A DNA stretch of 64,000 nt from an uncultured Prevotellaceae bacterium (GTDB taxonomy: Bacteria > Bacteroidota > Bacteroidia > Bacteroidales > Bacteroidaceae): NCBI GenBank assembly GCA_900316285.1, contig ONCG01000017.1:95767-159766 (forward strand), read 5' to 3'. Shown piece by piece: positions 12,305-58,709 of the stretch. The notes beneath the pieces were generated by a model, which did not search any database, had not been told where the DNA came from, and worked only from the letters and a program-made list of their open reading frames with translations. The translations under genes and the position numbers were made by a program. The number at the start of each line of letters is the position of its first letter. Positions within the stretch are counted from its first letter, which is position 1.

Positions 12305-13168
12305 CCATCCGAGCACTAGCAAGTGACTGATGTGATGTTGTTTCAAGTTGTTCACCTTGGCCTGTTGGTAGTCGCCGAGATAGCCTATGCGCAGCATGGA
12401 TTGTGGCTTGCGGCGCGAAAGGGGAATGTCGAATGTGAGCATGTGGCGCAGAGAGGGTGTTGCGGCGATGGTTGTCGGCACAATGTTATGATCGTAGTTG
12501 CCACGCGAGAAGATCTCGTAGTACGACTGTCCGTAGTTGGGTGAGAACATCAGGCCTGCCAAGGGAATGCTGAGTTCGTAGCGCAGGTAGGAGGTGCGGC
12601 GCAGCAGTTGCACCTGCTTGGTGACCGCTGCCGACGGAAGGAGTTGCACAGAGGCATAGGCTTGAGCTGGGTTGTTGCTGTTGCGAGTGTTGTAGAGTGC
12701 TCCTATCTGCGCTCCGATGCCACCACCTGCCTCCAGCGATAGCGTGGGTGTGAGTTGCCAGAAGCGGCGCAGATGGTAGCTGAAGTGGTACATGCCACCT
12801 ATCTCATCGTTGTTGTCGGCGCGGTTGCTGACGAAGGAGAACGTGCCCTCGTTGATGAAGGTCTGCATGAATTGTCGCCAGGGCTTCCGCTTCTGCGAGA
12901 TGATGCGAAGGTCGCTGCCAATGTATTTCTCTTGCGAGAGGTAGGTGTCGAGGATGCTGGCGTAGCCCATGCCAATTATGGTGGCCTTCTCCTGGGTGGG
13001 GAGGGGGGAGAGCTGCTCTTGCTGGGTTGGGTCGGGGGCGGCTGGGGTTTGAGCAGGGAGCGGGAGGGAGAGTTGCGATAACATCGCAACAAACAGAACC
13101 GGCAGGAGTAAGGACTTCCTGAATGGCTTCCTGATGGGGTGGGGCTGGTGTTGGCTACATGTCGTCAT
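12290..13168 (-). CDS. DUF3316 family secreted protein
   Basis: A 292-residue exported protein with an n-region rich in basic residues, a hydrophobic core around residues 20-38 and a cut near LPAQ. A low-complexity Pro/Gln linker follows, encoded by a G/C-biased stretch resembling the GGGGAGGGG repeats elsewhere in the window. The domain begins near GMGYASILDTYLS (residue 67), typical of DUF3316. It continues with barrel-like strands and ends LLVLGWTITR, consistent with an outer-membrane or periplasmic beta-barrel. The start codon overlaps the end of the topoisomerase gene by 14 nt, so it is probably co-transcribed with it. Function unknown. Confidence 0.75.
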   Translation of the reverse strand: MTTCSQHQPHPIRKPFRKSLLLPVLFVAMLSQLSLPLPAQTPAAPDPTQQEQLSPLPTQEKATIIGMGYASILDTYLSQEKYIGSDLRIISQKRKPWRQFMQTFINEGTFSFVSNRADNNDEIGGMYHFSYHLRRFWQLTPTLSLEAGGGIGAQIGALYNTRNSNNPAQAYASVQLLPSAAVTKQVQLLRRTSYLRYELSIPLAGLMFSPNYGQSYYEIFSRGNYDHNIVPTTIAATPSLRHMLTFDIPLSRRKPQSMLRIGYLGDYQQAKVNNLKQHHISHLLVLGWTITR

Positions 13169-16100
13169 CGCTGAATAAACTTAGCTGACCAGTCTTTGGG
13201 TCGTACTTAAACTGAGGGCTGGGAGCATCGTCGGCAGGAGGAGTTGGAGTGGAGGATGGCGCCTCAATGGGTTGCTTCACCTCGGGTTTCTTCTCCGCTT
13301 GCTTCTTTTCCTCGGGTTTCTTTTCCTCTTGCTTCTTTGGCTTTGCAGTCTGCTTCTTGGGCTTTTCAGTCTTTTCGGCTGGTTTCTCTTCCGGCTCAGG
13401 AGTCACCTCGGGAACTGGCTTCTTCGGCTCGGCTGCAGCCTTCTTTGCCTTAACGGGTTTGGCAGGAGCTTCTTGTTCAATGGGAGTAGCAGGAACTACT
13501 TGCTCAATGGGAGTAGCAGGTGCCTCCTTCTCGGCAACGGGTTCCGGCTCGACAGGCTGTTCTGGCTCGGCAATGGGAGCAGGTGTTTCAGGAACCTCTT
13601 CAGTAGGAGTGTCCTCGATAGCGGCATCACCACCCTCACCGATGTCCTCGCCTTCTTCGTCATCCGTATCTTCGTTCTCTGGTTCCGGCAGACGAGTGGG
13701 CTCTAACTCTTCTACGGACTCTATCTTCCACATGGTGACACGCTTGCCCTTGGCCTTGTAGCCCTTCACGGCGATGAACTCCTCGACATCGATCTCCATA
13801 GGTTCGCGCCAAGCATCGGCACCGCCGAAGGTGACGCGGATGCGCGGATAGGGCTGGTCGGTAAGCATTATCAGCTGCGAATTCTTGTTGTCGCCAAGGA
13901 AGTTCTTCTTCGTCTTCGTGCTTTCCATGAGGAAGCGCTTGATGTAAGGATAGCCTTGGTTGTCGGCATCGTAAAGCATCGTGCTCCACACCTTCTCCGG
14001 ATCGAACTTCTCGATGCGCATGATGTCGTCCTCATAGTGGTTGTTCAGGTCGAAGTTCGTGCAGTAGTAGTCGCAGTTCTTCAGAACGACCAATATCAGG
14101 TCGTCGTCGTAGAACTCGCCGAGATATTGCCCGTGGTCGTCGTAGTTCAGTCGGTTTACATCCGGATCCCACCACACCTTCAGACCGCCGAGCGTAGAGT
14201 GTCCGAGACTCTTCAGCGATATACGGTGAACAGGATTCTTCGTCAGGATGTTTCCCTTCACGCCGCGACCCTTGATGAGTACGTCGGCGAACGAACGTTC
14301 CATGAACAGCTTCTTGTTCTTGCTCTTGGTTTGCAGGATAGAGTCGAAGGTAATCTTGATGACCTCCGCCTCACCATTCGGGTTGGCGGTGAAGTATAGA
14401 ATCTTCGAACCAGGCTTTCCTTGCGTCAGGTCGACCTCTCGGTCGCGGGTGATGGATGGAACATTGAAGCGCTTGATGTAGCAAGGGCCGTTCTTTCCAT
14501 CGCGGTACACCATATTATATGTCGTACGCGTGTCGTTCTTCTTGAACACCTGCAGGTGCAGGATGTTCTTGCCCACGAAGAGCTTATCGGCCACGCGCAC
14601 CACCTTCATGCGTCCGTCGCGGTAGAAGATGATGATATCGTCGATGTCGGAGCAGTTGCAGACGAACTCGTCCTTCTTCAGACCCGTGCCGATGAATCCC
14701 TCCTGGCGGTTGATGTAGAGCTTCTGCGTGGCCTCGATGACCTTTGTGGCTTCGATGGAGTCGAAGTTTCGAATCTCGGTGCGACGCGGATGGTCCTTAC
14801 CGTATTTCTCCTTGATGAAGCTGAACCATTCGATCGTGACGTCGACCATATGGTCCAGTTTGTGCTTGATGTCCTTGATTTCCTTCTTGATGCGGGCGAT
14901 GAGTTCGTCGGCCTTGTCCTTGTTGAACTTCAGGATGCGCTGCATCTTGATTTCCATGAGTCGCAGGATGTCGTCGCGAGTGATGTCGCGGATGAGCTTC
15001 TTGCGGAAAGGCTCCAACCGCTTGAACAGATGCTCGACAACGGCATCCATGTTGGGCGCCTGCTCGAACTCGCGGTCCTTATACATGCGTTCCTCTATGA
15101 AGATGCGCTCCAGCGAGGCAAAGAACAGCTGTTCCTCAAGTTCACCCTTGCGAATCTCGAGCTCACGACGCAGGAGTGACATCGTAGAGTCAGTGTTGTG
15201 GCGCAACACATCGCTCACGGTGAGGAACTGCGGCTTCTGATCTTGAATGACGCAGCAGTTGGGCGAGAGATTGATCTCGCAGTCGCTGAAGGCATAGAGG
15301 GCATCGATGGTCTTGTCGGACGATACGCCCGGTGCGAGGTGCACTTGTATCTCGACATCGGCAGCGGTGTTGTCGTCCACCTTCTTGGCTTTGATCTTGC
15401 CTTTCTCGATGGCCTTCAGGATGGTATCGATGAGCGACGAGGTAGTCTTTGAAAATGGAATTTCGCGAATGACAAGTGTCTTCTGGTCGAGTTTCTCAAT
15501 CTTTGCACGCACCTTCAGAACGCCGCCGCGCTGGCCGTCGTTGTATTTCGACACGTCGATGCTTCCACCCGTTGGGAAGTCGGGATACAACTGGAACGGC
15601 TCGCCACGCAGATAGCTGATGGCGGCGTCGCAGAGCTCGTTGAAGTTATGCGGCAGAATCTTCGACGACAAGCCTACGGCGATACCTTCCGCACCCTGTG
15701 CCAGCAGCAATGGGAACTTCGCAGGCAGCACGATGGGCTCCTTGTTGCGACCATCGTAGGAGAGCTGCCAGTCGGTTGTCTTCGGGTTGAACACCACGTC
15801 GAGGGCGAACTTCGACAGTCGTGCCTCGATGTATCGCGGCGCTGCGGCGCGGTCGCCCGTGAGAATGTTTCCCCAGTTGCCCTGTGTGTCGATGAGTAAG
15901 TCCTTCTGTCCCATCTGCACGAGGGCGTCGCCGATGCTGGCATCGCCGTGCGGGTGGAACTGCATGGTGTGTCCCACGATGTTTGCCACCTTGTTGAAGC
16001 GGCCGTCGTCCATGCGCTTCATGGAGTGCAGGATGCGACGCTGCACAGGCTTGAAGCCGTCTTCGATGTGTGGCACGGCACGTTCCAGAATCACATAGCT

Positions 16101-16337
16101 GGCATAGTCGAGGAACCAGTTCTGATACATGCCCGACAAGTGGTGCACTGCCGATGCGTCGAAGCGATTGGCGGGGCGGTAGTCGGAGTGTTGCTCAGGG
16201 GCGTCAGTGCCCTCCTGGCTTTCCAAGCCTTCAAGGTCTTCTTGGCTATCTGAGGTTCCCGGATCTTCAAGGTTTTCCTGGGTCTCTTCCGTTTCGTTTT
16301 CGTTTAGAATTTCGTCGTCTTTTATCTTGTCGTCCAT
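13155..16337 (-). CDS. DNA topoisomerase IV / gyrase-type subunit A
   Basis: A 1060-residue type IIA topoisomerase A subunit that cuts and rejoins DNA with a partner ATPase subunit, which is not in this window. The breakage domain has HPHGDASIGDALV and the active-site Tyr169 in APRYIEAR. A coiled-coil tower region (about 430-520) and a beta-pinwheel C-terminal domain (about 560-850) follow. Two oddities: an acidic Glu/Asp/Gln-rich N-terminal extension of about 60 residues, and a Pro/Glu/Lys/Ala-rich tail from about 860 to 1040, before a final QFKYDPKTGQLSLFSDDD. The start at 16337 is chosen because a promoter element lies at 16360-16367, inside the longer open frame. Bacteroidetes carry two A-type paralogues; ParC is more likely than GyrA because the C-terminal GyrA-box is not evident. 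Confidence 0.9.
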   Translation of the reverse strand: MDDKIKDDEILNENETEETQENLEDPGTSDSQEDLEGLESQEGTDAPEQHSDYRPANRFDASAVHHLSGMYQNWFLDYASYVILERAVPHIEDGFKPVQRRILHSMKRMDDGRFNKVANIVGHTMQFHPHGDASIGDALVQMGQKDLLIDTQGNWGNILTGDRAAAPRYIEARLSKFALDVVFNPKTTDWQLSYDGRNKEPIVLPAKFPLLLAQGAEGIAVGLSSKILPHNFNELCDAAISYLRGEPFQLYPDFPTGGSIDVSKYNDGQRGGVLKVRAKIEKLDQKTLVIREIPFSKTTSSLIDTILKAIEKGKIKAKKVDDNTAADVEIQVHLAPGVSSDKTIDALYAFSDCEINLSPNCCVIQDQKPQFLTVSDVLRHNTDSTMSLLRRELEIRKGELEEQLFFASLERIFIEERMYKDREFEQAPNMDAVVEHLFKRLEPFRKKLIRDITRDDILRLMEIKMQRILKFNKDKADELIARIKKEIKDIKHKLDHMVDVTIEWFSFIKEKYGKDHPRRTEIRNFDSIEATKVIEATQKLYINRQEGFIGTGLKKDEFVCNCSDIDDIIIFYRDGRMKVVRVADKLFVGKNILHLQVFKKNDTRTTYNMVYRDGKNGPCYIKRFNVPSITRDREVDLTQGKPGSKILYFTANPNGEAEVIKITFDSILQTKSKNKKLFMERSFADVLIKGRGVKGNILTKNPVHRISLKSLGHSTLGGLKVWWDPDVNRLNYDDHGQYLGEFYDDDLILVVLKNCDYYCTNFDLNNHYEDDIMRIEKFDPEKVWSTMLYDADNQGYPYIKRFLMESTKTKKNFLGDNKNSQLIMLTDQPYPRIRVTFGGADAWREPMEIDVEEFIAVKGYKAKGKRVTMWKIESVEELEPTRLPEPENEDTDDEEGEDIGEGGDAAIEDTPTEEVPETPAPIAEPEQPVEPEPVAEKEAPATPIEQVVPATPIEQEAPAKPVKAKKAAAEPKKPVPEVTPEPEEKPAEKTEKPKKQTAKPKKQEEKKPEEKKQAEKKPEVKQPIEAPSSTPTPPADDAPSPQFKYDPKTGQLSLFSDDDM

Positions 16338-16359
16338 AGGTCTTTGGTAAATTATCATG

Positions 16360-16367
16360 CAAAAATA
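16360..16367 (-). promoter_or_regulatory. Promoter (-7 element) of the topoisomerase gene
   Basis: TATTTTTG on the minus strand, 23 nt upstream of the ATG at 16337. It rules out the longer start at 16370, which would be upstream of transcription. Confidence 0.6.
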
Positions 16368-16421
16368 CATAAAAAAAGTGAGAAAATCGTCATGAAAAGC
16401 AATTTTCTCGCAATAATCATG

Positions 16422-16429
16422 TAATTTTG
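16422..16429 (+). promoter_or_regulatory. Promoter (-7 element) of the FMN-binding protein gene
   Basis: TAATTTTG followed by C, 30 nt before the ATG at 16460; divergent from the topoisomerase promoter. Confidence 0.6.
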
Positions 16430-16459
16430 CAGCGTTAAAAGTAGAAATGCAATAAGATT

Positions 16460-16864
16460 ATGAACATGAATAACTTGAAGAGAATAAAAACGGCAGCAGG
16501 AGCAGTCCTCCTGTCAGCATTCCTGATGAGCGCAATGCCTGGCGATGACACTATCACTCGTGAGGGTGCCACCACGATTGTCAATACCACCACAATTGGC
16601 AAGAGCATCGAAGGCTATGCCGGACCTACGCCCTTGAAGATTTATATCGAAAAGGATAAGGTGGTGAAGGTGGAGACCTTGCGCAGTCAGGAAGGCCCGA
16701 AGTACATGGCGAAGGCCAAGAAGCTGCTTGAAAAGTATCAGGGCAAGTCGGTCGCAAAGGCCAAGAAGCTGAAAGTGGATGCCGTCACGGGTGCCACGCT
16801 CACGAGCAATGCGCTGATGAAGAATGTCCAGAAAGGTCTCGAATACTACGAGAAGAATAAGTAA
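16460..16864 (+). CDS. Secreted FMN-binding-domain protein
   Basis: A 134-residue exported protein. A signal peptide (about residues 1-28) is followed by a single FMN_bind domain with GYAGPTPLKIYIEKDKVVKV and, near the C-terminus, DAVTGATLTS. The latter matches the (S/T)GAT motif in which a threonine is covalently flavinylated by ApbE in related proteins. It is a lone domain, not part of an Rnf or Nqr operon, so it may be an extracytosolic electron carrier. It has its own promoter and terminator. Flavinylation is inferred from the motif only. Confidence 0.88.
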   Translation: MNMNNLKRIKTAAGAVLLSAFLMSAMPGDDTITREGATTIVNTTTIGKSIEGYAGPTPLKIYIEKDKVVKVETLRSQEGPKYMAKAKKLLEKYQGKSVAKAKKLKVDAVTGATLTSNALMKNVQKGLEYYEKNK

Positions 16865-16885
16865 CTATCCCGTAAAAACTATAGA

Positions 16886-16926
16886 AGAATCCGGCTGAGC
16901 TACGGCATCAGTCGGATTCTTTTTTG
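16886..16926 (+). terminator. Terminator of the FMN-binding protein gene
   Basis: AGAATCCG and CGGATTCT form the outer stem, with TGA/TCA inside, followed by six T residues; 21 nt after the stop codon. Confidence 0.85.
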
Positions 16927-16946
16927 TCTGGATGCCACATGTAGTG

Positions 16947-17056
16947 ATGCAAAAGCAGTCCAGTTATCGTGCCAAAGCAGTCCCTTAATTATGCTAGAGC
17001 AATCCTTTAATCGTGCTAAAGCAGTCCTTTAATCATGCTGGAGCAGTCTTCTTATC
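16947..17056. repeat. 22-nt tandem array A (5 units)
   Basis: Five units start at 16947, 16969, 16991, 17013 and 17035, each exactly 22 nt, with consensus RTGCTAAAGCAGTCCTTTAA plus TC. Most units hold a short dyad TGCTnnAGCA. It is the first of three consecutive arrays that fill the non-coding gap 16865-17410; no gene was found in this gap. Confidence 0.92.
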
Positions 17057-17082
17057 ATATAATAATTCATATTTTATAAAGT

Positions 17083-17170
17083 AATATATGATATATTACT
17101 CACCAATATATGATATATTACTCGGCAATATATGATATATTACTTTGCAATATATGATATATTACTTCAT
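17083..17170. repeat. 22-nt tandem array B (4 units)
   Basis: Four units start at 17083, 17105, 17127 and 17149. Each contains the same AATATATGATATATTACT block followed by four variable bases. AATATAT-G-ATATATT is a perfect odd palindrome. The sequence is unrelated to array A but the period is identical. Confidence 0.93.
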
Positions 17171-17176
17171 GAAATG

Positions 17177-17286
17177 CATGCTCTATGCTTATGAAAGCTA
17201 TGCTTTTGAACGATAAAAGACATGCTTTTGAAGTATAAAAGGCATGTTGTTGAAGGATGAATGGCATGCAGTTGAGGGCCTGAAAG
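17177..17286. repeat. 22-nt tandem array C (5 units)
   Basis: Five units start at 17177, 17199, 17221, 17243 and 17265. All begin with CATG or TATG, with a loose consensus CATGCTTTTGAAGnATAAAA plus GG. A partial sixth unit starts at 17287. The period is again 22 nt. Confidence 0.85.
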
Positions 17287-17363
17287 CATGGAAAAAAGAT
17301 GTAGATGCACTGTTTTTTCATCATTATCTTCCATTTTTATGACAAGAATAGAAAATGTTTTCT

Positions 17364-17371
17364 TATCTTTG
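17364..17371 (+). promoter_or_regulatory. Promoter (-7 element) of the esterase gene
   Basis: TATCTTTG followed by C, 39 nt before the ATG at 17411. Confidence 0.6.
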
Positions 17372-17410
17372 CACATGTAAAGTTTAATTGATCAAGAAAA
17401 CGCTAAGAAA

Positions 17411-18289
17411 ATGAAGAAACAATTTTTGGTTTTGGCATGGTGCCTTGTGCAGTGTGCAATGGGAATGGCTCAAGGCTGGGGAGCCCAGAGCAAAGTGGTC
17501 ACCGACAGCATGTATAGCGAGACGCTGAAGGCGTGGCGGGCGTATAACGTGTTCATTCCCCGCAGTTTCGAACAGGATAAAGACCGCCAATATCCCGTGC
17601 TCTATCTGCTGCATGGCATGTGGGGAACCAATAAGGACTGGGATGGGCGCGGCCATGTGAAAGACGTGATGGATCAGTTGGTGGCTTCCGGCGAGGCTTG
17701 CGAGATGATTATCGTCATGCCGAATGCCGGTGGAGTAGTGGGAAAGGAATGGAACGGCTACTTCAATATGAAGGGCTGGGCCTATGAAGATTTCTTCTTC
17801 AACGAACTGCTGCCGAAGGTGGAGAAGCAATATCGTGTCATTGGCGACAAGCAGCACCGTGCCGTTGCAGGCCTGTCGATGGGTGGCGGCGGCTCGACGA
17901 GCTATGCCGAGCGCCATAGCGACCTATTTGGTGCATGCTACGCCATGAGTGCGCTGATGGAACTGCCGCAGTACACGCCCGAGCAGGAACGAAACACCGA
18001 CCTCGAGAGTATGGAAGGACAGCTCTATTTGTCGGTGCGCAACCTCGGCTGCACGAAGTTCTTGCGCGAAGCCAACGATGAGGTGAAGAAGCAGTTGCGT
18101 ACGGTGCAATGGTTTGTTGATTGCGGTGACGACGACTTCCTGCTCGACCGTAATCTGGAATTCTATCAGGCCATGCGCGAGGCTCGCATCCCTTGCCAGC
18201 TGCGTGTTCGCGACGGCGGCCACACATGGGAGTATTGGCACTCCGCCCTTTACACCTGTCTGCCTTTTGTGACACGGGTGTTTAAGTAA
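17411..18289 (+). CDS. Secreted esterase of the esterase-D / feruloyl esterase type
   Basis: A 292-residue exported alpha/beta-hydrolase. The signal peptide ends near AMGMAQ (residue 21). The fold markers are YPVLYLLHGM (61-70), the nucleophile elbow GLSMGGGG with Ser156, and the histidine in DGGHTWEYW near residue 270. This matches the 'esterase family' (COG0627-like) proteins that Bacteroidetes use to remove acyl groups from plant polysaccharides or other substrates. It stands alone, with its own promoter and terminator, so the substrate cannot be inferred from neighbours. Confidence 0.9.
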   Translation: MKKQFLVLAWCLVQCAMGMAQGWGAQSKVVTDSMYSETLKAWRAYNVFIPRSFEQDKDRQYPVLYLLHGMWGTNKDWDGRGHVKDVMDQLVASGEACEMIIVMPNAGGVVGKEWNGYFNMKGWAYEDFFFNELLPKVEKQYRVIGDKQHRAVAGLSMGGGGSTSYAERHSDLFGACYAMSALMELPQYTPEQERNTDLESMEGQLYLSVRNLGCTKFLREANDEVKKQLRTVQWFVDCGDDDFLLDRNLEFYQAMREARIPCQLRVRDGGHTWEYWHSALYTCLPFVTRVFK

Positions 18290-18298
18290 CAAACAGCC

Positions 18299-18337
18299 GA
18301 CCCTCCCCGACCTTTTACGAGGAGGGTTTTCTTTTTT
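18299..18337 (+). terminator. Terminator of the esterase gene
   Basis: ACCCTCC pairs with GGAGGGT across a short loop, followed by a T-rich tail; 10 nt after the stop codon. Confidence 0.75.
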
Positions 18338-18347
18338 ATGTTTTTCA

Positions 18348-18377
18348 TGTCACAAATCAGAAGCTGTTGCGTATAAG
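18348..18377 (+). promoter_or_regulatory. Candidate ECF sigma-dependent promoter
   Basis: TGTCACA (18348-18354), 15 nt, then CGTATAAG (18370-18377), just upstream of a sigma-factor gene. The layout resembles self-regulated ECF promoters of Bacteroidetes. There is no TAnnTTTG element here. Assignment is inference. Confidence 0.45.
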
Positions 18378-18409
18378 TGGCATAGAAATGAATCAATAAC
18401 GCGTTAAAG

Positions 18410-18895
18410 GTGACAACCGAAGAGTTTAAGCAAGAGGCGCAGGCCATGCGCCCACAGCTCATCAACCAGGCCCGACGGTATCTCGGCGATACCGATGAAG
18501 CCGAGGATGTAGTGCAGGATGCACTGCTAAGGCTGTGGCAGATGCGCGAACAACTCTCATCGCCACTGGTCCGAATGGCCGTGGTCGTCACCCGCAACCT
18601 CGCCATCGACCACCTGCGTCGCCGCCGTCCTGCTGCTTCGCTCGAGTTGGTGGCAGCCGAAGAGGAACCGCAAGTCGATCCTCGCACCGAACGAATCCTT
18701 GCCATCGTCGACACGTTGCCGCCCTTGCAGCAGACCGTTCTCCGGCTGCGCCACATGGAAGACATGGAGATGGCCGACATCGCTGAGCTCACCGGTAGTA
18801 ACGAGGTGGCCGTTCGGAAAACGCTCAGCAGAGCCCGTCAGGCAGTGAGGGAAAAGTATTTGTCAATGCGAAAAGAAAAAGAAGTGAAGATATGA
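18410..18895 (+). CDS. ECF-type RNA polymerase sigma factor
   Basis: A 161-residue sigma-70 family factor with only regions 2 and 4. Region 2 has the DEAEDVVQDALLRLW signature (about 31-45). Region 4 has LPPLQQTVLRLRHMEDMEM followed by the helix-turn-helix ADIAELTG and VAVRKTLSRAR. The start codon is GTG; the ATG upstream (18388) is closed by a stop after three codons. Its end overlaps the next gene by 4 nt, which pairs it with the anti-sigma-like protein. It heads a four-gene operon (18410-20793). Confidence 0.92.
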   Translation: MTTEEFKQEAQAMRPQLINQARRYLGDTDEAEDVVQDALLRLWQMREQLSSPLVRMAVVVTRNLAIDHLRRRRPAASLELVAAEEEPQVDPRTERILAIVDTLPPLQQTVLRLRHMEDMEMADIAELTGSNEVAVRKTLSRARQAVREKYLSMRKEKEVKI

Positions 18896-19410
18896 TGAAT
18901 GAACTTGAAATACGTACGCTGACCGAGCGATTCTTCAACGGCGAGACCACACTTGCCGAAGAGCGCCGGCTCTATCAACTCTATAGCGAGGCAGAGTCGT
19001 TACCTGCCGACCTGGAAGAGTTGAGGGAGATGATGGCGGACCTGGGGGAACTATCAAAGAGACCCACCCCCCAGCCCCTCCCTGCATCGAGGGGAACAAT
19101 TACTCATCGCAATCAGAAGGACATTCAACTCCCCTCCATACAGGGAGGGGCTGGGGGTGGGTCTTCTGCTCCTTCAGGAAGGGGCTGGGGGTGGATCTCT
19201 ATTGCCGCCTCTCTTCTCCTCTTCTTCACACTGGGCTCCATGTGGTACGGCTACCAGCAGAAGAACGAGTGCGTGGCTTATGTCTATGGGGAACGCGTGA
19301 CCGACCGGGAGTTGGTGATGCATGAGATGCACACCGCTATGGCCTCGCTCACCACCGACGATGCTACAGCTACGATGGAACAACAAATGAAAGAACTGTT
19401 TAGCGAATGA
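18892..19410 (+). CDS. Anti-sigma-factor-like membrane protein
   Basis: A 172-residue single-pass protein. The N-terminal part (RTLTERFFNGETTLAEERRL, residues 8-27) is typical of Bacteroidetes proteins encoded after ECF sigma genes and probably binds the sigma factor in the cytoplasm. A hydrophobic segment lies near residues 99-116, followed by a short extracytoplasmic tail. The linker just before the membrane segment (about residues 57-100) is Pro/Gly/Ser-rich and is encoded by an inverted repeat of REP type (19061-19194), which looks like an in-frame insertion. It overlaps the genes on both sides by 4 nt. Confidence 0.75.
   Translation: MMNELEIRTLTERFFNGETTLAEERRLYQLYSEAESLPADLEELREMMADLGELSKRPTPQPLPASRGTITHRNQKDIQLPSIQGGAGGGSSAPSGRGWGWISIAASLLLFFTLGSMWYGYQQKNECVAYVYGERVTDRELVMHEMHTAMASLTTDDATATMEQQMKELFSE
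19061..19194. repeat. REP-like inverted repeat inserted in a coding region
   Basis: The left arm (19061-19084) starts GACCCACCCCCCAGCCCC. The right arm (19141-19163), ending GGGGCTGGGGGTGGGTC, is its reverse complement apart from one extra base. A second copy of the right arm lies at 19179-19194. The whole block is in frame. Confidence 0.88.
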
Positions 19411-19871
19411 AGACAATGAAACGGTTATTAGTAATAGTGATGACGATGGCCTGCTGTCAGACCTTTGCGCAGAGCGGCATGCACATTTCGGCCCTCTTCG
19501 AAGGGAAGATAGTGCCGATGAGGCAGATGGTGGAGACACGCATTCGCGGAAAAGCCATCAGTCGGTACAAACTGTCGTATTTCCATAGCGTGCGCTTCAA
19601 GGCCGATGAGGCACTGGTGAAGAAGATTGACCACCTGGCTGCAGCAGACTTCGTGGCAGACTCGGAGAAACGGAAGGACCGCGAACCATCGAGCATAGGC
19701 AGGGGACAACACGGGAAAGGGAACTCTACGTTCACGCAGATGTACGAACTGGCACCGCATGGCTCCACGAATCGCTACCTTTGCTATAAGGTTGTCAACG
19801 ATTTAATGACGGTTATCTATATGGAAGGAACCGTCACATCTCTCGACGAATTAAGGGAGATATTTAAATAA
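19407..19871 (+). CDS. Small secreted protein, DUF6108-like
   Basis: A 154-residue protein with a signal peptide (cut near TFAQ, residue 22), then HISALFEG, ISRYKLSYFHSVRF, and a C-terminus YMEGTVTSLDELREIFK. This pattern is like the DUF6108 proteins of Bacteroides, which are also encoded behind ECF sigma genes. It overlaps the anti-sigma-like gene by 4 nt and is part of the same operon. A role as envelope sensor or effector of the sigma system is a guess; the function is unknown. Confidence 0.7.
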   Translation: MKTMKRLLVIVMTMACCQTFAQSGMHISALFEGKIVPMRQMVETRIRGKAISRYKLSYFHSVRFKADEALVKKIDHLAAADFVADSEKRKDREPSSIGRGQHGKGNSTFTQMYELAPHGSTNRYLCYKVVNDLMTVIYMEGTVTSLDELREIFK

Positions 19872-19905
19872 GGATATAAAAAAAATAACAAAAACAATAA
19901 ATGAC

Positions 19906-20793
19906 ATGAAAACGAAAATGACTATTCTTCTGGCTCTGGCCACATGTGCCACTGCCTTTGCTTCGAATGGTTCCACACCCGAAGCCGACAATGACACACT
20001 CATCGTGAACAATCCCAGCAAAGTAACCGTCATCACTGGCGACTCGCTACAGACCATCCGCATAGAAGGACGCAACGACGACCCCAACTTCCGATATGAA
20101 AACACGTTGCAGTTGGTAGACTCTAACTACGTCAGCGGCCTCATGCTGAACGGCGATAATTGGGAGTTCTCGTTGCCCATCGGTAAGAAACATAGCGACG
20201 AATGGGTGGAAAACGAAGTGACGATGCACTTGGGCGTCGGCGGTTGCACTGCTCTAGGCGCGCCAGAAGAGATGGATGTGTCGATGAACCATTCGTTTGA
20301 AATCTTCTGGACCATCGCCCAATGGGACTATACACCGAAGAACAGCCACAGCACATGGTCGGTGGGATTGGGCCTCGACTGGCGCAACTACCGCATGACA
20401 AGCAACTTGCGATTCACGAAAACGCCCGACAACAGTGTGATTATTACTCCTTATGAAGGCGAGAATGTTAGCCCGAAGTTCTCACGGGTGAAAGTATACA
20501 GCCTGCAGATGCCCGTGCTCTATCGCTATAAGTTCAACAGGAACTTTGCCTTGAGCGCTGGACCGGTGCTGAACCTGAACACGCATAGCAGTCTGAAGAC
20601 GCGCTACAAGATTGACGGACAGAAATACAAGGACAAGGCAAATGATGCACGCGTCAATCCGGTGACGGTCGATTTCATGGGAATCATCGAAACGCCCATC
20701 ATCGATCTCTATTTGAAATACTCTCCCTGCAACGTGCTGAAGACTGACTACGCACCGAAGTTCCAGTCGCTCAGCTTAGGTATCTATATATAA
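19906..20793 (+). CDS. Outer-membrane beta-barrel-like protein
   Basis: A 295-residue exported protein. The signal peptide ends near TAFASN (residue 20). A stretch with amphipathic strands follows (WSVGLGLDWRNYRM, VYSLQMPVLYRYKF, FALSAGPVLNLNTH), ending LSLGIYI. This is the look of a PorT-type or OMP_b-brl barrel. It is the last gene of the sigma / anti-sigma / DUF6108 operon, 34 nt after the previous stop, so it may be a principal target or envelope partner of that system. Confidence 0.7.
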   Translation: MKTKMTILLALATCATAFASNGSTPEADNDTLIVNNPSKVTVITGDSLQTIRIEGRNDDPNFRYENTLQLVDSNYVSGLMLNGDNWEFSLPIGKKHSDEWVENEVTMHLGVGGCTALGAPEEMDVSMNHSFEIFWTIAQWDYTPKNSHSTWSVGLGLDWRNYRMTSNLRFTKTPDNSVIITPYEGENVSPKFSRVKVYSLQMPVLYRYKFNRNFALSAGPVLNLNTHSSLKTRYKIDGQKYKDKANDARVNPVTVDFMGIIETPIIDLYLKYSPCNVLKTDYAPKFQSLSLGIYI

Positions 20794-20830
20794 GAAAAGG
20801 AGACCCGCCCCCTGGGTGTTAAAAAGATAA

Positions 20831-33357: not shown

Positions 33358-33599
33358 GCAGCAATGGGGCACATTTCGTGCATCATTGCTGCCGCTTTTT
33401 TGCAGCATACCTGCCGCTTTTTTGCAGCACGTCTGCCAAACTTCTGCAGCACGTCTGCCATCTTTAGGCAGCATTGCTGCACACTTTCGGCAGCATTGCT
33501 GCACAACTTAGGCAGCATTGTGGCACACTTTAGGCAGCATTGCTGCACAACTTGTGCCAACATGCTGTGGCACATCTGGCACTATCATTTCGGCAGTAG
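33358..33599. repeat. 22-nt tandem array D (11 units)
   Basis: Units start every 22 nt from 33358 to 33578. The nine from 33358 to 33534 begin with GCAGCA or GCATCA and have the core GCAGCATTGCTGC, an odd palindrome (GCAGCA-T-TGCTGC). The last two units are degenerate. It fills the first half of the non-coding gap 33307-33831; apart from it and a promoter the gap holds no gene that I can see. Confidence 0.9.
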
Positions 33600-44039: not shown

Positions 44040-44104
44040 CCTCAACGTCTCAACCCCTCAACGTCTCAACCCTTCTCAACGTCTCAACCCTTCTCAACGT
44101 CTCT
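44040..44104. repeat. CTCAACGT/CTCAACCCTT repeat before dacB
   Basis: On the minus strand units GTTGAGAAGG (10 nt) and GTTGAGAC or GTTGAGGG (8 nt) alternate, directly between the sprA stop and the dacB start. They belong to the same GTTRAGA family as 35824-35935. Confidence 0.85.
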
Positions 44105-58622: not shown

Positions 58623-58642
58623 TAACCCTCACCCCTTCTCCG

Positions 58643-58709
58643 CTCTTCTCAACCCTTCTCAACCGCGCCGAGGCGCATCTCAACCTCTCAACCTCTCAAC
58701 TTCTCAACT
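58643..58709. repeat. GTTGAGA-family repeat with an embedded GC-rich unit
   Basis: On the minus strand GTTGAGAA, GTTGAGAG, GTTGAGAG, a 21-nt unit beginning GTTGAGATGCGCC with the hairpin CGCC-TCG-GGCG, and GTTGAGAAGG. This is the reverse orientation of the family found between ruvA and sprA (35824-35935). It ends just before the start of the next gene. Confidence 0.82.

Follow-up and report, generated by a model that had tools for sequence, protein, structure and literature searches.

The repetitive region between 16948 and 17299 of the window (the whole 64,000-nt stretch of DNA analysed here, from an uncultured Prevotellaceae bacterium) forms a single continuous array of small palindromes, not three independent arrays, and its units recur throughout the genome at a sharply fixed pitch of 22 nt. 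The original prediction that three adjacent blocks, A, B and C, each have a 22-nt period was borne out by TRF (16948-17048, 17083-17166 and 17200-17275), and the autocorrelation of 16926-17300 peaks at lags of 22, 44 and 66 (0.66, 0.57 and 0.47; runner-up 0.34). The same prediction took the blocks for separate arrays of unrelated sequence, and neither part of this holds. The supposed gaps of 26 and 6 nt lie inside a single 22-nt register, and when written out from 16948 in rows of 22 letters the region reads as about 15 consecutive units (16948-17277) plus a partial one. Block A comprises five 22-nt units (16948..17057 by TRF and by rows in register). It is followed by a degenerate unit in the first supposed gap (17058..17079), a near-twin of which, differing in 1 of 21 letters, adjoins B at another locus of this genome (L009). 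Block B consists of four AATATATGATATATT dyads with 7-nt spacers (17080..17167), and block C of five A-related but inverted units in the common register (17168..17277) and a last partial unit (17278..17299). None of these features is assigned to a strand.

The A consensus matches the reverse-complemented C consensus at 16 of 22 letters, a score equalled by 4 of 20,000 mononucleotide shuffles (P ~2e-4, over all rotations and both strands; three block pairs compared in all). The similarities of A to B (10/22) and of B to C (9/22) lie within the shuffle range, so that B resembles neither A nor C. Twenty base-centred dyads of at least 5 of 7 pairs are found between 16930 and 17310. Eight of them share phase 18 mod 22, namely two in A (axes 17002 and 17024), four in B (17090, 17112, 17134 and 17156) and two in C (17200 and 17222), and the other twelve comprise five half a period away, at 7 mod 22, and seven elsewhere. 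Given the single register, the kinship of A and C and the presence of B elsewhere in the genome, no cause particular to each array is required to account for the shared period. The window holds a second period-22 array of the A/C type (33389..33553, strand unassigned; AGCAnTGCT units such as GCAGCATTGCTGC), which the original prediction did not mention and which shows higher periods of 44 and 66 nt. Clusters of 8-10-nt repeats of the CTCAACNN type occur at 44041-44103 and 58628-58708.

The A-B-C array starts 22 nt beyond the intrinsic terminator (16883..16925, + strand, a hairpin and then a run of T; 16880-16930 folds at -26.9 kcal/mol, z -6.7) of a small FMN-binding-domain (FMN_bind) protein gene (16460-16864). 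On the other side of the array lies a putative esterase gene (17411-18289), and a gyrase/topoisomerase IV A subunit gene is located upstream on the opposite strand. The closest esterase relatives found are in the metagenome-assembled genomes Prevotellaceae RUG12665 (96 % aa) and Prevotella RGIG7592 (91 %, water buffalo omasum). From esterase identities and layout, the loci L030 and L029 were assigned to two sister species, G236 and G264, respectively.

The suspicion that the shared length is no ordinary coincidence is supported by the periods of other arrays. Of 11 intergenic minisatellites (at least 2.8 copies, period at least 13) in the portion of this genome that was sampled, window included, 8 have period 22. 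A lack of any excess at 22 was looked for and not obtained, as 5 of the 7 arrays in 15 stretches of this genome without the window have period 22 (outside ORFs of at least 120 aa, at least 2.8 copies, period 13-60). Stretches picked mostly for holding arrays were kept out of these counts. The excess is strong in this genome and weaker over the genus, where 20 stretches from other species yield 22 in 3 of 13 intergenic arrays, the other periods in the genus being 14, 16, 20, 21, 27, 40 and 41. Periods of 22-23 nt recur in the order in small numbers: esterase loci of Bacteroidales have 22 in 5 of 10 arrays, plus one at 21 and one at 23, and all three arrays in the order-level stretches have 23 and none 22, two of them, in one locus, looking related. 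Outside Bacteroidales, 380 kb contained a single array, with a period other than 22. At L164 5674-6119 of another species (G016), three adjoining 40/41-nt arrays of differing sequences echo the same-period pattern and also the 41-nt repeats known for P. gingivalis.

A general claim that all 22-nt arrays are built of dyads was rejected. Arrays of 21-23 nt have a stem of 4.6 against 3.4 in shuffles of the TRF units (4/20 at p<=0.05), and arrays of other periods 3.5 against 2.8 (2/14 at p<=0.05), which is only mildly positive, and in a lag test on adjacent non-identical dyads none of the sets had an excess at 22 (own genome 0, genus 1). We therefore restrict the dyad claim to the present repeat family.

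Within this family, the A/C-type unit has the core AGC-NNN-GCT. Neighbouring AGCAnTGCT pairs, 4-33 nt apart, occur 138 times in this genome and not once in the reversed-pattern control; among the 50 pairs listed, from at least 21 places, 47 have pitch 22, two 23 and one 21. For G014, G236 and G047, 68 of the 75 pairs listed are at 22 (47 of these from the sister species G236), five at 23, one at 21 and one at 25; pairs of G268, scanned along with these three, are not among the 75. Such pairs are present in 64 of 398 genomes of the genus, this genome counted; outside it, 45 of the 77 forward matches listed, in 16 genomes, have pitch 22 and the rest are scattered, with reversed-pattern controls of 0-2 per genome. 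Among 148 genomes of other genera of the order the pair was found in only four, once each and never at pitch 22 (reversed control up to 7 in one genome). The 35,868 intergenic bases of the 15 own stretches contain 13 AGCAnTGCT that each have another copy 22 or 44 (+/-1) away and no single one, and seven more copies lie in ORFs of these stretches. When all 256 palindromes of the 4+1+4 form are compared, AGCA.TGCT is the most frequent in intergenic groups spaced at 22 (13 occurrences), followed by TTAA.TTAA (4).

The conservation within these units is that of a symmetric consensus. Over 29 arrays, 109 of 142 cores have AnT as their central three letters, and 942 arm combinations beyond the AGC core comprise 456 that are Watson-Crick, 326 of transition type and 160 of transversion type, which is a purine/pyrimidine match in 782 of 942 positions. 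The neighbouring genes of the 29 arrays are convergent in 9 cases, co-directional in 11 and divergent in 6, with 3 without a call. Placement is largely intergenic: none of 12 sites lies inside an ORF of at least 130 aa, and 4 of the 29 AGC-type arrays overlap an ORF of at least 100 aa.

The B unit, AATATATnATATATT plus 7 nt, likewise recurs. An 18-letter B pattern with up to two mismatches has 38 matches in this genome, all within six arrays, and these six loci, with four in G236 and seven in G264, give 17 B loci, or 13 distinct sites after comparison of the flanks. Neighbouring B dyads have pitch 22, i.e., 7 nt between 15-nt dyads, in 52 of 54 pairs (gaps of 0-29 allowed between 13-letter cores); the remaining two pairs are AT runs, and reversed-pattern controls give 0, 0 and 2 pairs in this genome, G236 and G264, respectively. 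The block changes in size by whole units, with 2, 4 or 5 dyads per site. The register of the surroundings was tested with B alone setting it: on the odd axis so predicted, non-B units, five on each side of B at six sites, average 3.38 of 7 pairs, with at least 5 pairs in 13 of the 60 units. The best rival odd axis, at the half-period, has 2.63 pairs (6/60 units with at least 5), other odd axes have 1.2-2.6 pairs (0-3/60 units, half-period axes apart), and an even axis half a base off has 2.60 pairs (8/60). Among the six sites are L011, without its inverted copy L012, and L030, which is orthologous to the window site. L011 and L012 (G000:C33) are copies of each other at sites ~21 kb apart, inverted as whole elements including non-repeat flank.

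B begins with AAGTAATATAT at 12 of 13 sites and ends with ATATATTACTT at 11 of 13, the dyad itself having been the selection criterion. Such inverted ends follow from an array of dyad units and do not in themselves point to a transposon. Mirrored letters flank the block, with ATn preceding AAGT at 9 of 13 left ends and nAT following ACTT at 9 of 13 right ends, and we interpret this as a tendency of the full element toward a long imperfect palindrome. A fixed order of the B spacers was rejected: of the 13 sites, seven have exactly GCAAAGT in first place and six have GGTCAGT or GGTCGGT in last place. With these counts, and with the first spacer used to choose the orientation, the order is a tendency only. 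REP-like hairpins (GTAGGGACGCGGCGTGCCGCGT) are seen beside arrays at L011 6300-6400, L012 6890-7060 and L270 3773-3800, and further, CGACCCCGTCGGGGTCG-like hairpins at L010. An L13-Bacteroidia ribosomal protein leader (L013 6190-6264) adjoins a B array between divergent genes.

Filled and empty sites distinguish the sister species. At the window site the array is present in this genome and in G236 and missing from G264; at the G236 site the A-B-C layout is kept, and the unit sequences partly differ from those of the window. At a further site (L297), B alone stands beside genes in G264 and is missing from this genome and G236. The junction there is ambiguous, since the host gene in this genome ends in AAGTAA, which is also the start of B. 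Neither a transposase, nor a target duplication, nor an autonomous partner came to light; a search of the own genome with an 18-letter pattern, which diverged ends would escape, returned no autonomous element with B ends. A T6 run stands at either end of the window insert, perhaps by chance. The two runs resemble a target-site duplication, but at the array the identity to the sister species changes over in part. In a comparison of 12663-20807 with L029 and L030, L030 is the closer in most 200-base intervals left of the array. To the right L029 is closer over the esterase (90 vs 83 %), at 18.3-19.0 kb (84 vs 80) and at 19.9-20.8 kb (89 vs 84), and L030 at 19.2-19.85 kb (82 vs 78). This switch suggests that the junction may be recombinational, and from these alignments the array may mark a recombination junction.

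We consider it rather probable that these arrays represent a palindromic repeat of Prevotella, non-coding, dispersed and mosaic in build, akin to BIMEs and MITEs, that spreads and changes in length by whole 22-nt units. Each unit would carry one short dyad of either the AGC-NNN-GCT (A, C) or the AATATATnATATATT (B) type, with the A and C units inverted about the centre. B blocks would appear at new sites either as MITE-like elements mobilised in trans by some enzyme or by recombination with existing copies, and the arrays would gain and lose whole units by duplication and loss and be homogenised locally. By such spread, whole-unit change and homogenisation, the 22-nt register would be inherited and not invented three times. 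The route of B movement and what holds the unit at 22 we infer only. Common descent of the two unit types is unsupported, as B and A/C units share no sequence; inheritance alone gives no account of why 21- and 23-nt variants stay rare, and the low share of period 22 in other species of the genus speaks against this explanation.

The main rival is a cooperative binding protein. A dimeric DNA-binding protein would occupy each dyad, and with 22 bp equal to two helical turns all copies would lie on one face and form a cooperative nucleoprotein filament with a putative role in the nucleoid, insulation or silencing. The pitch stays at 22 across species though the spacers differ, two different dyads share one register, and the symmetry of central letters and arms described above is likewise expected of a binding site. 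Against this stand the two dyad types without a common core, the lack of single AGCAnTGCT in the intergenic bases surveyed, the mixed gene context and the fact that no protein was identified; we regard binding as possible, yet clearly less probable than the mosaic repeat. Somewhat less probable still, and in our opinion unlikely, is a genus-specific chromosome-structuring system, in which well over 100 adjacent palindromic sites of this genome, spaced at two helical turns, would be occupied by a cooperative DNA-binding factor and B would seed in-register arrays.

An RNA element, in which the array is transcribed and its units or the whole fold-back act as an RNA hairpin, would account for several features and is nevertheless improbable. 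The fold of the array is better than that of shuffled sequences (RNA z -5.2 in the window and -5.8 at L030; as DNA -2.8), although tandem palindromes fold well by construction. G-U mismatches are coherent in strand, at 28:0 and 23:1 in L269 and L270 and, on the other strand, 0:19 and 2:26 in L301 and L308, but in co-directional cases this polarity is independent of the direction of the flanking genes. When the right arms are shuffled among the 164 distinct units, pairing exceeds the shuffles at k=9 (z 5.9), but there is no covariation at k=5, 6, 7, 8, 10 and 11 (z -1.1, -2.3, -1.7, 1.2, 0.7 and -4.0). Furthermore, the window array sits after a terminator, and the arrays of nine loci have no Rfam match at gathering score, the only such match at these loci being a ribosomal leader outside the array and the window giving sub-threshold matches only. 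With the covariation test negative and no agreement with gene direction, we rejected the RNA hairpin as the leading model. It is the symmetry of the consensus, more than compensating stems, that is conserved, and this argues for a repeat or binding site at the DNA level over an RNA hairpin.

Equally little probability attaches to a mechanistic step, i.e., a replication or recombination enzyme, present throughout Bacteroidales, that would add fixed-length units beside a dyad, so that any seed palindrome would become a 22- or 23-nt array. Unrelated 22-23-nt arrays in other Bacteroidales (6/10 at esterase loci, 3/3 at the order level) and the 22- and 23-nt repeats mentioned for P. gingivalis (PMC4596501) are consistent with it; against it are the small numbers, the modest excess of dyads over shuffles in 21-23-nt arrays and the failure of the stricter lag test on non-identical dyads to show an excess at 22. 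Independent slippage minisatellites of the same length by chance, in line with the other periods among intergenic arrays of at most 60 nt in the genus, are contradicted by the common register, B at 13 sites and the near-constant pitch of the AGCAnTGCT pairs listed, and are most improbable.

With the mosaic repeat as the preferred reading, a local oddity becomes a genome-wide family whose pitch is sharply fixed, in a genus that is dominant in rumen and gut. As judged from sequence comparison, the Prevotella arrays may constitute a new form of dispersed palindromic intergenic repeats. Filled and empty sites and a defined consensus make the cause of the pitch testable, be it a protein, an expansion enzyme or descent, and the arrays may mark hypervariable gaps of use in strain typing.

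The literature covered, which leaves out most subscription journals, held no description of these Prevotella arrays. They are not CRISPR arrays, as they consist of contiguous diverging 22-nt units and not of identical repeats with unique spacers. The BIME/REP elements of enterobacteria are dispersed intergenic mosaics of short palindromic units in tandem; the present arrays are likewise dispersed intergenic palindrome mosaics, but differ in their 22-nt pitch. This genome has three Y1_Tnp matches, possible RAYTs (C12:31183, C20:92274 and C15:132682), one of which, with a frame of 184 aa, is of possible RAYT size. MITEs are short, non-coding and variably present at their sites. The B block is short, non-coding, AT-rich and variably present as well, but differs from MITEs in that no target duplication or parental element was identified and in that its inverted ends follow from the dyads.

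The parallel to Porphyromonas drawn in the original prediction is apt in kind, as 41-, 23- and 22-nt tandem repeats of strain W83 and the 23-nt units of BrickBuilt are mentioned in the account of that element (PMC4596501). BrickBuilt is a 23-nt minisatellite of P. gingivalis within a MITE, with 19 dispersed copies in one strain, a leader, a tail and 12-bp IS5-like ends, and is reported for P. gingivalis and P. gulae (PMC4596501). Around the 17 B loci the best matches to these GAGACCTTTGCA-like 12-bp ends reach 8-10 of 12 letters, against 8-11 in 200 random own stretches. The unit is 23 nt there and 22 nt here, and the parts of that account drawn on here do not describe BrickBuilt as a mosaic of two units. 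Both occur in Bacteroidales, are intergenic and dispersed, consist of imperfect tandem units without spacers, have filled and empty sites between strains and are predicted to form long stem-loops, and one BrickBuilt copy also follows a Rho-independent terminator. By these likenesses, the nearest described relative of the Prevotella arrays is probably BrickBuilt of Porphyromonas.
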